64,000 nucleotides of DNA from Trichlorobacter ammonificans (GTDB lineage: Bacteria; Desulfobacterota; Desulfuromonadia; Geobacterales; Pseudopelobacteraceae), in the NCBI RefSeq assembly GCF_933509905.1, contig NZ_OW150024.1, positions 1,600,001 to 1,664,000 on the forward strand, written 5' to 3'. Within the stretch, counting starts at the first letter, position 1. Each line of letters opens with the position of its first letter. Shown piece after piece: positions 2,543 through 44,141 of this stretch. The position numbers and the translations under genes were made by a program. The notes beneath the pieces were generated by a model. That model worked only from the letters and a program-made list of their open reading frames with translations, was not told where the DNA came from and made no database searches.

Positions 2543-5500
2543 TGCGTCGCACTCACCACCACGTTATCCACCCCCATGGTATAGCTGCCGGTGTAGGTCC
2601 AGCTGTCCACGCTGATGCCGCCGGTGCCGTAGGGAGCACGGGAATCGAAGTTATTGTCGGTCACGTCGATCTTCAACGTGTCATCATAATAGACCTGGAT
2701 TCTGGTGCCGCTGAACACCAGCTTTACGGTGTGCCACCCGGTGCCGACACTGGAGAGGTTCACCTGTCCCATGGGGGTGCCGCTCCAGCCGGTCCAGCTG
2801 CGGAACTTCACCAGCTTGAGCGTGTTGGAGCCGCCGATGGAACCGTCCGGGTAGATCCAGGCGCCATAGTGCTCACCGGTGCCCGGATTGAGCTTTCCGC
2901 CAATGCCGCCGCCGAAGGCTCCTGACGGAAACTGGAACTGGGCTTCAACACTGTAATTGCGCCACTCGGGATCGGGCACCGTGTAGAGGTAGCCGTAGTT
3001 CATCGTTGCGCCACTGCCTCTCAGGACCCCGTTACCGTCGACGGACCAGGTCCCTGCCTGAACAGTCCAGGGAAGCAACGGATTCACCTGGCCGGGGGTA
3101 CGGGTGAAATCATCGGAGAACAGGCTGCTGCTCACCGGAATCACCGTGATCGACACTGTCGCGCTCTCTGAGGTGAGTGAGCCGTCACTTATCTTGTAGG
3201 TGAAGCTGTCGCTGCCGCTGTAGCCGGTAGTGGGTGTGTAGGTGAAGGAGCCGTTGCTGTTCAGACTCAGAGTGCCGTAGGACGGGCCGCTCACCAGCTG
3301 GGCGGTTAGCGTACTTCCCTCGGGATCGCTGTCATTGACCAGCAGGCCGGGAGCAGCCACGGTCAACGCGGTGTTCTGGTTGGTGCTGTAACTGTCGTTC
3401 ACCGCCACCGGTGCTTGGTTCACGGCAATGACCGTTAACGACACCGTTGCGGCACTTGAAGTGAGGGAACCGTCGCTGACCCGGTAGGTGAAGCTGTCGC
3501 TGCCGCTGTAGCCGGTGGTGGGTGTGTAGGTGAAGGAGCCGTTGCTGTTCAGGCTCAGGGTGCCGTGGGAGGGGTTCGTTACCTTCTGGGCGGTCAGCGC
3601 ACTTCCTTCCGGGTCGCTGTCGTTGGCCAGCAGCCCGGGGGCAGCCACGGTCAACGCGGTGTTCTGGTTGGTGCTGTAACTGTCGGCAACGGCTACCGGT
3701 GCCTGGTTCACGGCAATGACCGTTAACGACACCGTTGCGGCACTTGAAGTGAGGGACCCGTCGCTGACCCGGTAGGTGAAGCTGTCGCTGCCGCTGTAGC
3801 CGGTGGTGGGTGTGTAGGTGAAGGAGCCGTTGCTGTTCAGGCTCAGGGTGCCGTGGGAGGGGTTCGTTACCTTCTGGGCGGTCAGCGCGCTTCCTTCCGG
3901 GTCGCTGTCGTTGGCCAGCAGCCCGGGGGCAGCCACGGTCAACGCAGTGTTCTGGTTGGTGCTGTAACTGTCGTTCACTGCCACCGGTGCCTGGTTCACG
4001 GCAATGACCGTTAACGACACCGTTGCGGCACTTGAAGTGAGGGAACCGTCGCTGACCCGGTAGGTGAAGCTGTCGCTGCCGCTGTAGCCGGTGGTGGGTG
4101 TGTAGGTGAAGGAGCCGTTGCTGTTCAGGCTCAGGGTGCCGTGGGAGGGGTTCGTTACCTTCTGGGCGGTCAGCGCACTTCCTTCCGGGTCGCTGTCGTT
4201 GGCCAGCAGCCCGGGGGCAGCCACGGTCAACGCAGTGTTCTGGTTGGTGCTGTAACTGTCGGCAACGGCTACCGGTGCCTGATTTGCCTTCACGGCGATG
4301 GATACCGTGGTAATGGCCGAGGTGAGGGGCCCGTCGCTGGCCCGGTAGGTGAAGCTGTCGCTGCCGCTGTAGCCGGTGGTGGGTGTGTAGGTGAAGGAGC
4401 CGTTGCTGTTCAGGCTCAGGGTGCCGTGGGAGGGGTTCGTTACCTTCTGGGCGGTCAGAGTGCTGCCCTCGGGATCGCTGTCATTGGCCAGCAGGCCGGG
4501 GGCAGCCACGGTCAACGCGGTGTTCTGGTTGGTGCTGTAACTGTCGGCAACGGCTACCGGTGCCTGGTTGAGGGTATTCTGGACCCGAACGAGCGTGACG
4601 GAGTTGCCCACCCGGATTTTCACGCCGCCGGTGGTGGTCCGGTATTCAGTTGCAGCTGCGGGCTGTCCGTTCAGGTAAATCAGGGGAGTGCCGCTATAGC
4701 CCGACGGAATGGCCAGCTCCACGGCCGTATCCGGATCAGTTGCCCCACTGACGGTGGCGTTGATCACGTAACTGTCGGAGGTGGTGGTCGCGGTCGGCGT
4801 GACACTGACCGCTGCGCGCAGACGCCACCAGTCACTCACCTCCACGGCGTTGCCGGACCAGATGCGCGTCTTGGTCATGCCGTATGTGATATACTCCTGC
4901 TCAATCCCACCGCTGCTCGATGGTTGATGAGTATAGAAATTGATCAGCGCACCGAGATTGTAATAGAAATCAATACCGGCCCGAATAGAACTGACCGTGT
5001 GCCCCTCCGTGCTCTGGGCCACCAGGACGCCGACGAACCAGTCGCTGACCGGCAGGCTGACGGGCGAGAAACGTTTACCGGCGGTTGTATAGGAAATGGT
5101 CCTGGCCGGGAACGGACCGAGTTTCTGCTCTCCCACCACCACAAGATTCAACTGCTCCAACATGCCCCGGGATGCTTCGCGGGTAGCGTTGAAGTACGGC
5201 GACGCCCAAGTTCGCGGGCAGTTCTTGAGGGCACCGCAACCGCTCCGTCCGTTGTCGAGCCCGCTCAGCCAGCCCTCGATGTCGGTGAAGGATTTCAGGA
5301 GCGAGGCGGTGGCATAGGCCGTGCCGCTTGCATAGCCGCTGGGTGTCACATCCAGCGCCTCGTCCGGCCCCCAGTGCCAGTAGTCGTAGTCGCTCTGCAC
5401 CAGGCTGCCGTTCACCGGATTCTTCAGCCCACCATTGTGGGAACCGATGGTGGCGCCGTAGTTTGAAACGGCAGAACGCAGGCTGGCGACCACTGCGGCA

Positions 5501-43032: not shown

Positions 43033-43224
43033 CTACTTCCAGTGGATGCAGGAGGCGGGACAGACGTTGATCGCATCGGACTCGATCCGCTCCTCCGAAG
43101 CACCGGCGGGATCATAGCACTCCGCCTTGCCATTGATGGCAAGCCGGAACACTGCCGGCAGATTGTTGACGCACAATTCGCAACTGATGCACTCTTCCTC
43201 GTCGATCCATATCTCTCTGGCCAT
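43033..43224 (-). CDS. small [4Fe-4S] ferredoxin
   Basis: The start at 43224 gives 63 residues; AGGGGA lies 6-7 nt upstream, whereas another ATG at 43230 touches that site. The cysteines CISCELC and, later, NVCPASC match the CxxCxxC...CP pattern of a single [4Fe-4S] cluster, with one spare cysteine. The remaining sequence (IWIDEEECISCELCV, FRLAINGKAECYD) is typical of the one-cluster ferredoxins of anaerobes. It starts 23 bp after the stop of the rhodanese gene, suggesting a two-gene unit in which it might supply electrons. Confidence 0.88.
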   Translation of the reverse strand: MAREIWIDEEECISCELCVNNLPAVFRLAINGKAECYDPAGASEERIESDAINVCPASCIHWK

Positions 43225-43247: not shown

Positions 43248-43553
43248 TCACGGGTAGCCGGCCACTTTCCAGGCGTTCACGCCGCCTTTGAGCACGGCGG
43301 TGTTGGCATACCCCATCCCGTCGAACTGCTCCGCCACCCGGGCGGAGGTATGTTCATTGGTTCAGGCACAGTAGAAGATGATCTCCCGGTTCTTCTCCAG
43401 CCCGGGCAGCATCTCCCGGAACCTCTGCAGTGAAATCGCCCCGGCCAGCCGGTTCGCCTCGAACTGCTCGTTGCTGTCATAGGCGCAGACCAGCAGGGCT
43501 CCCGCCTGTTGCCGCCCATGTGCCGCTGGGGGTGCTAGTGACGTAACTGCCAT
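43248..43553 (-). CDS. rhodanese-like protein with in-frame UGA at the active site (probable selenoprotein)
   Basis: Reading from the ATG at 43553 (AAAGGAGG 7 nt before), the frame meets TGA at codon 64 (43362-43364) and then stays open for 37 codons to a normal stop at 43248-43250. With UGA read as selenocysteine the 101-residue protein is a single rhodanese domain: IIFYCAU, then TNEHTSARVAEQF, and a final LKGGVNAWKVAGYP. The U sits exactly where relatives have the catalytic cysteine (YCxCPNExTSA-type). A hairpin of the right kind and distance follows the UGA. The other possibility, a broken gene, is less likely because both halves are well conserved. It probably transfers sulfur or reduces it with high reactivity. 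Confidence 0.82.
43329..43347 (-). promoter_or_regulatory. bacterial SECIS-like hairpin
   Basis: In the mRNA, 14 nt after the UGA, a stem CUCCGCC/GGCGGAG of 7 bp closes a five-base loop CGGGU. The GGU in the apical loop and the distance from the UGA fit what SelB needs in bacterial SECIS elements. The hairpin lies inside the coding sequence, as usual in bacteria. Confidence 0.7.
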
Positions 43554-43628
43554 GGGACTCTCCTCCTTTCTGATTTGCCGGCATCGGACGGTCCGCTGCT
43601 TCGCCCCATGCCCCCATGCCTCGTGACA

Positions 43629-44141
43629 TCAGATACCGGCAGCAAGGGCCAGTACTGACGAAGCGTATGCCTTTGCCCGTTGCCCCCTGCCGTTGTATCG
43701 CTCCAGGGCAAGGGCAAGGCTGCCGTTGGATTCAGCCAGCAGTTCCCGCAGAATGCTGCCGGCCTTTTCCGTCTGGGTTCCGAACGTCTCACCGGGGTCA
43801 CCCCAGATGTTCGGTCGCACCTGGTAGGCTCCCACCTCTCCCGCCCTGCCCCGGGCCTGGATATCAAAACCACTCTCCCGGGCGGCAATGGCCGCCAGGA
43901 CCGTGCCGTGCCGGTGCCTGCTCAACAGTTCGGCCATCTGGGCCGCCTTGCTGCCGGCTGCGGCCCCGTGACGGCGGACAAAGGATTCGATCCGCTGCGA
44001 CAACAACGAGCGTGGCCTGATCTCCCGGCGCCCCCCCCTGGTCTCCACCACGGTATCCCGGCGAATCTCCCAGGAATATTCTCCGGAACCGCACAGTGAC
44101 GGCAGTGCGAGACAGGCCCCTACCAGAACGATTATTTTCAC
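43629..44141 (-). CDS. lytic transglycosylase-like protein (SLT fold)
   Basis: The 170-residue protein begins with a signal peptide (KIIVLVGACLALPSLCGSG; the cysteine could be lipidated but the box is imperfect). The lysozyme-like catalytic region has AAIAARESGFD with the catalytic glutamate, GEVGAYQVRPNIWG, and ALERYNGRG near the end, as in Slt/MltC-type enzymes. It is short and lacks accessory domains. It would cleave peptidoglycan in the periplasm. It is on the same strand as the selenoprotein gene (75 bp apart) but no functional link is evident. Confidence 0.85.
   Translation of the reverse strand: MKIIVLVGACLALPSLCGSGEYSWEIRRDTVVETRGGRREIRPRSLLSQRIESFVRRHGAAAGSKAAQMAELLSRHRHGTVLAAIAARESGFDIQARGRAGEVGAYQVRPNIWGDPGETFGTQTEKAGSILRELLAESNGSLALALERYNGRGQRAKAYASSVLALAAGI

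Follow-up and report, generated by a model that had tools for sequence, protein, structure and literature searches.

The genes and features that we recognise at the locus are collected in Table 1, with positions given on the window, by which we mean the whole 64,000-nucleotide stretch of Trichlorobacter ammonificans DNA that was analysed. The central feature is a short rhodanese-like gene read from the minus strand (window 43248-43553), whose translation runs MAVTSL...IIFYCAU64TNEHTSARV...AGYP and closes at a TGA terminator; the stretch around the predicted active site is IIFYCAU64TNEHTSARVAEQF. A preliminary description of this DNA had reported an in-frame TGA at codon 64 and a 7-bp hairpin 14 nt beyond it, and both are confirmed here, with the addition that the strand, which had been left unstated, is the minus strand. 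The plus strand of the same interval contains nothing comparable in the one frame translated. A general reassignment of TGA is rejected, because the rhodanese gene itself terminates at this codon. Rfam searches of the window and of the locus gave no matches, a scan for promoters and terminators found none, a plasmid search was without match, and a viral contig search found none.

Table 1. Features of the selenocysteine rhodanese locus, in window coordinates.
Feature	Position	Strand	Basis
Single-cluster [4Fe-4S] ferredoxin gene, 63 aa from ATG	43033..43224	-	Fer4_13, 42.8 bits (cut-off 24.5)
Selenocysteine rhodanese-like gene (Trichlorobacter ammonificans), predicted	43248..43553	-	Start 43553, 101 codons + TGA stop 43250-43248; translation
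Bacterial SECIS-like hairpin, 7-bp stem CUCCGCC/GGCGGAG, loop CGGGU (43340-43336)	43329..43347	-	Fold and covariation
In-frame TGA, predicted Sec codon U64	43362..43364	-	Sole internal stop; TGA in 66/67 family rows
C62 codon, first residue of C-x-U	43368..43370	-	Cys in 65/67 rows, TGA (Sec) in 2/67
C23 codon, at the rhodanese DxR place	43485..43487	-	Cys in 67/67 rows; ends a predicted strand
Shine-Dalgarno-like AGGAGG before the ATG of the rhodanese gene	43562..43567	-	Sequence
SLT-domain gene upstream of the rhodanese gene	43629-44141	-	SLT, 22.1 bits (cut-off 21.3)

The machinery for selenocysteine (Sec) insertion, which the preliminary description had proposed to look for, is present in the genome, a single contig of 3,058,983 bases. 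SelA (604 bits), SelB (368 bits), SelD (348 bits, with an in-frame TGA of its own) and a tRNA-Sec with the anticodon UCA (73 bits) all score above their curated cut-offs. A tRNA-Sec is likewise found in all eight of the genomes with the rhodanese gene that were checked.

Relatives of the window protein, for which we use the family name CAY-U, were sought in 141 genomes of the order, 277 of the class, and a sample of 395 of the phylum. The search models held C at position 64, so a cysteine form would not have been missed on that account; the first-pass candidates scored were at most 17 per genome in the class search and at most 12 in the phylum sample, and a low-ranked copy could escape. The class search gave 50 matches scoring 120 bits or higher, spread over 48 of the 277 genomes, and below these a gap down to 67 bits; 48 of these matches contain one TGA only, one contains a TGA and a TAA, one a TAA only, and none is without a stop. 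In the phylum sample, 24 genomes, five of which had already been met in the earlier searches, yielded 25 matches with scores of 114 bits or more; all 25 contain the TGA, two of them twice. A search of genome contigs with the window protein alone recovered two named relatives, both from Geomonas. The gene is absent from all 14 other genomes of the genus included in the order and class searches.

Several patterns emerge from the comparison of 67 family rows (the window included), among which near-identical rows were retained, so that the rows are not independent events. First, codon 64 is TGA in 66 rows and TAA in one, and is never a Cys codon. The sense codons in close homologues that had been named as evidence against a selenoprotein are thus not seen at this position, and since the homologues share the TGA, it cannot be a sequencing error. 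Secondly, C62, which the preliminary description had not mentioned, is conserved as highly as U64, with Cys in 65 rows and TGA in two. Thirdly, C23, Y61, A71, A74, G81, G91 and W95 are present in every row. A relative with C-x-C instead of C-x-U (L146; G322:C169:4191-4502) retains a DVR motif and lies outside CAY-U; it is possibly the type of a cysteine ancestor.

The hairpin begins exactly 14 nt after the TGA, and its loop has a GGU on the 3′ side. The 45 nt from the TGA fold with an energy of -15.8 kcal/mol and a z of -2.2, the three other segments folded giving -0.6, -1.0 and -0.2; by itself the hairpin is therefore only moderately unusual, three of the four folded segments being unexceptional. 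It falls within the bacterial SECIS constraints given in PMC13188914 (a loop of 3–9 nt, a stem of 4–16 bp, a G in the first two loop positions, a distance of 16–37 nt from the UGA, and an MFE of at most -7.5), with its 5-nt loop, 7 bp, 21 nt and -15.8 kcal/mol. The case for the hairpin rests on the family, because both the stop codon and the hairpin are conserved there. Among the 66 rows in which pairing was counted (L142, a relative described below, and L042 were excluded), the third positions of codons 70 and 74 combine as UA in 34, CG in 28, UG in two and other combinations in two, and are thus paired in 64; these codons specify Ser or Ala (Ala in most rows), the third-base changes are synonymous, and the pair has undergone at least 13 state changes on the tree. 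For a set of 42 distinct sequences, covariation reaches a score of 0.219 compared to 0.117 in shuffled alignments, and 92.5% of cells are paired compared to 86.4%, with none of 500 shuffles as high on either measure. Two of the five shuffle measures are unexceptional (pairs changed on both sides, 259/500; further pair types, 435/500), and because the shuffles ignore relatedness these shares are not probabilities. Of the six hairpin pairs four are invariant, and in 19 of the 42 sequences the outermost one is unpaired. The loop reads GGUCN in 55 of the 66 rows; the CGGGU of the window is found in three (the others are L123 and L129).

The reading frame beyond the TGA also bears the marks of a coding sequence. 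In 178 pairs of rows from the order, restricted to those with a dS from 0.1 to 1.5, the median dN/dS is 0.32 before the TGA and 0.22 after it, which argues that the region beyond the TGA is selected at the protein level; by this estimate the selection there is as strong as that ahead of it. Of the frame damage named beforehand as counter-evidence there are a few instances among the relatives, with frameshifts or nonsense codons. One of two copies in G274 (L079; G274:C57:56645-56944) has a TAA exactly at the Sec codon and is open for the rest of its frame, the other copy having the TGA; the Sec rhodanese of G121 (L081; G121:C80) has a TAA twelve codons past the Sec codon, with a tRNA-Sec on the same contig; and a relative in G353 (L142; G353:C18), scoring 77.6 bits and left out of the 67 rows, has its frame broken a few codons past the TGA. 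Recoding of the TAA as Sec in G274 is rejected, as the one tRNA-Sec found there has the anticodon UCA, and the TAA copy is thus more likely a decaying duplicate.

These damaged copies are what could be cited for a TGA that is a genuine stop, which would make the gene a pseudogene or cut its product short at 63 aa, but with the TGA retained in 66 of 67 rows, Sec machinery in the genome, purifying selection beyond the codon and a covarying hairpin, we consider that reading extremely improbable, and a chance open frame or pseudogene is rejected on the same grounds. From these sequence data, UGA64 is almost certainly decoded as Sec by way of SelB, tRNA-Sec and the hairpin just downstream. The original proposal of a selenoprotein rhodanese with a SECIS-like element is thus supported by the machinery, the conserved TGA and the stem covariation.

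CAY-U has a close counterpart among known protein models. NCBIfam NF041203 (rhodanese_LYCAU, 'rhodanese-related (seleno)protein') corresponds to the CxU rhodanese-like form 3 tabulated in PMC13188914, and a CxU rhodanese is also listed in PMC9312934. Like the window protein, it is a single rhodanese domain with Y-C-x-U (FYCAU) and is a predicted selenoprotein. All 28 rows of our alignment A1 match the model (best E 8.3e-20). The window protein scores 64.1 bits against a cut-off of 115, and its membership is rejected, with three other CAY-U proteins scoring 58.8–67.9. Two of three DVR-type relatives pass (L143 at 119.8 and L147 at 121.6; the third scores 96.3), and whereas L143 and L147 keep the DVR, in CAY-U the place of the DxR is taken by a Cys that never varies. 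In a quick tree of 71 rows, whose weight is limited by few columns and long branches, CAY-U splits from five LYCAU-type rows with an SH-aLRT of 99. Other known selenoproteins are more distant. TsoB (NF045694), a rhodanese/DsbD fusion-like selenoprotein, similarly has Sec beside a rhodanese-like part, but its model spans 572 positions, it is given as UxxxxU in the table of PMC13188914, and of the 805 bits set as its cut-off the window protein reaches 23.7. Rhodanese-like forms 1, 2 and 4 of the same table are likewise predicted bacterial Sec rhodaneses, and are set apart, by their description in that table alone, through other Sec motifs (UxxS, UxxG). Neither a CAY-type subfamily nor a UxU rhodanese was found in the open-access passages searched (PMC13188914, PMC9312934, PMC1794560, PMC8318568, PMC2398784, PMC3543383 and PMC12013277), and either may have been published elsewhere. 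CAY-U is thus very probably a real selenoprotein family, sister to the CxU rhodaneses and outside the NCBI models tested. Because the NCBIfam CxU model does not cover CAY-U, annotation pipelines likely end the protein at the UGA.

The window protein matches the Pfam Rhodanese family (PF00581) at 35.1 bits (cut-off 22.2), and an AlphaFold model built with 28 family rows as input has a pLDDT of 93.1 and a pTM of 0.86, and predicts that the protein keeps the rhodanese fold. Its best match among solved structures is the Escherichia coli thiosulfate sulfurtransferase GlpE (1gmx), with a Z of 15.3 and an rmsd of 1.9 over 98 aligned residues at 17% identity. GlpE itself has a DIR motif and a loop, CYHGNS, without a C-x-C/U pair. 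The preliminary description had placed U64 at the active-site cysteine, and here the profile alignments divide evenly: those with GlpE and with the second domain of 6mxv set U64 on the loop Cys (C65 in GlpE, which we take to be catalytic), whereas those with BH2092 and the first domain of 6mxv set C62 there, the choice hinging on a two-residue gap that is poorly fixed. C23 aligns with the D of the GlpE DIR, or with the residue ahead of the D in the DVR of BH2092, and by analogy with Cdc25 it may have a "back-door" cysteine role.

Rhodanese domains are characterised, in PMC10135228, by a DxR at a strand end and by (C/D)x4/5(R/T) in the loop. CAY-U departs from the first: every one of the 67 rows has a C followed by A/G/S and Y/H, and R stands at position 26 in a single row. 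It matches the second only if Sec is counted as Cys, with U64-x4-T in 50 rows, U64-x4-S in 16 and U64-x4-A in one; there is no match from C62 in the window. Position 67 is acidic throughout (E in 66, D in one), and no conserved Arg is present in the loop among the 67 rows.

Two relatives have two in-frame TGAs two codons apart, giving Y-U-x-U (L136, G446:C132:2735-3040; L138, G599:C53:8584-8886). Their genomes belong to different families, and in both the conserved hairpin follows the second TGA; each is predicted to hold two Sec residues in one active site. In the order of G599, CAY-U is found in 8 of 29 genomes (at E values up to 1e-25), and only G599 has two TGAs. Because Sec replaces C62 in these two rows, positions 62 and 64 both behave as chalcogen sites. 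The residues themselves, with C23, C62 and U64 conserved and with two lineages that have Sec where the others have C62, suggest a redox pair at C62/U64.

The unusual features of the family are thus the use of Sec, never Cys, at position 64 in the sampled genomes, the invariant Cys at the DxR place, and the two relatives predicted to have double Sec. CAY-U provides a covarying set of bacterial SECIS hairpins, and a clean test case for the benefit of Sec in a rhodanese fold, be it in sulfur transfer or in redox chemistry.

The ferredoxin ATG (43224) lies 23 bp past the rhodanese stop and the genes are co-directional. The adjacency noted in the preliminary description is therefore real at this locus; the redox-linked unit that it proposed is suggestive, with the same downstream ferredoxin in three of the 67 loci (the window, G006 and G121). 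Two further loci have a two-cluster ferredoxin (Fer4) upstream on the same strand (L091:2112-2285 in G265 and L095:4093-4272 in G247), and in G247 a pterin-4a-carbinolamine dehydratase gene (Pterin_4a, 4313-4663) lies between the ferredoxin and the Sec rhodanese genes. The motif scan, which extended up to 1.5 kb to each side and less at contig ends, found no small ferredoxin at the other 62 loci; of six raw hits five were counted, that at L022 being a 340-aa protein. A control gave none at 36 other loci, which overlap and are not matched by genome, and is hence weak. The three downstream pairs all sit within a single five-row group of weak support (SH-aLRT 83), and so may represent one event. 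The ferredoxin link is thus real here and rare across the family.

In another genome of the genus (G131) there are homologues of the SLT-domain gene (63% identity) and of the ferredoxin (75%), with a YtxH gene between them and no Sec rhodanese; the rhodanese gene has therefore been lost there or gained here. A survey of neighbours at 32 loci found no family common to more than four loci, those mostly in one genus; the survey is crude, the frames that it selected having left out even the ferredoxin. No reductant gene is regularly linked to CAY-U.

With moderate confidence we favour the interpretation that the gene encodes a selenoprotein of about 11 kDa with a rhodanese fold, without DxR and with the chalcogen residues C23, C62 and U64, that is probably an oxidoreductase more than a sulfur carrier. 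In such an enzyme U64 would attack a sulfane sulfur, a disulfide or a similar substrate, C62, perhaps with the help of C23, would resolve the resulting adduct into a selenenylsulfide, and the enzyme would then be restored by a cellular reductant. Electrons could in this genome come from the co-directional ferredoxin, although the route would probably be indirect, through another reductase, since a one-electron carrier alone does not usually reduce a disulfide. We speculate further that CAY-U proteins are Sec-obligate rhodanese-fold oxidoreductases in which the DxR site has been drawn into a three-chalcogen relay of C23, C62 and U64 (with Y-U-x-U and two predicted Sec in two lineages), acting as a ferredoxin-linked sulfane-sulfur or selenium reductase; this extended version is doubtful, but if true it would be a reductase built on the rhodanese fold and not on the thioredoxin fold.

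The main rival to the redox reading is a classical single-domain sulfurtransferase, in which U64 stands in place of the catalytic Cys, picks up a sulfane sulfur as Se-SH and hands this sulfur on to an acceptor. The rhodanese fold, the alignment of U64 with the presumed catalytic C65 of GlpE, and the U64-x4-T or -S loop close to the rhodanese pattern are all as it would predict, but the missing DxR, the acid at position 67 and the want of a conserved loop Arg are not, and the invariant C23 and the Cys or Sec at position 62 would be superfluous for simple transfer. On balance we regard it as possible, if somewhat unlikely. If the adjacent Cys and Sec instead served an enzyme for metalloids or metals, whether arsenate reductase-like or mercury-binding, there would be parallels in the rhodanese-fold arsenate reductases, which use a catalytic Cys (PMC10135228), and an adjacent thiol and selenol should suit soft metals. 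No neighbour of such a kind recurs in the crude 32-locus survey, however, and this role is improbable. Rhodaneses can carry selenium, and a protein holding Se(0) in perselenide form for delivery to SelD or another acceptor would accord with the tRNA-Sec present in all eight checked genomes; but a Sec-dependent donor for Sec synthesis is circular, selA, selB, selD and the tRNA-Sec gene are far from the rhodanese gene in its own genome, and the gene is absent from the 14 same-genus genomes (which may or may not use Sec), and we consider this role a shade more improbable still. The redox reading thus remains the one that we prefer.

Elsewhere in the genome there is a further rhodanese (L116), with FYCAG and a longer loop. 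The SelD protein (L149; G000:C1:2341869-2342792) is itself a predicted selenoprotein, and the hairpin after its TGA folds with a GGA loop, without the GGU that is common in the rhodanese family.
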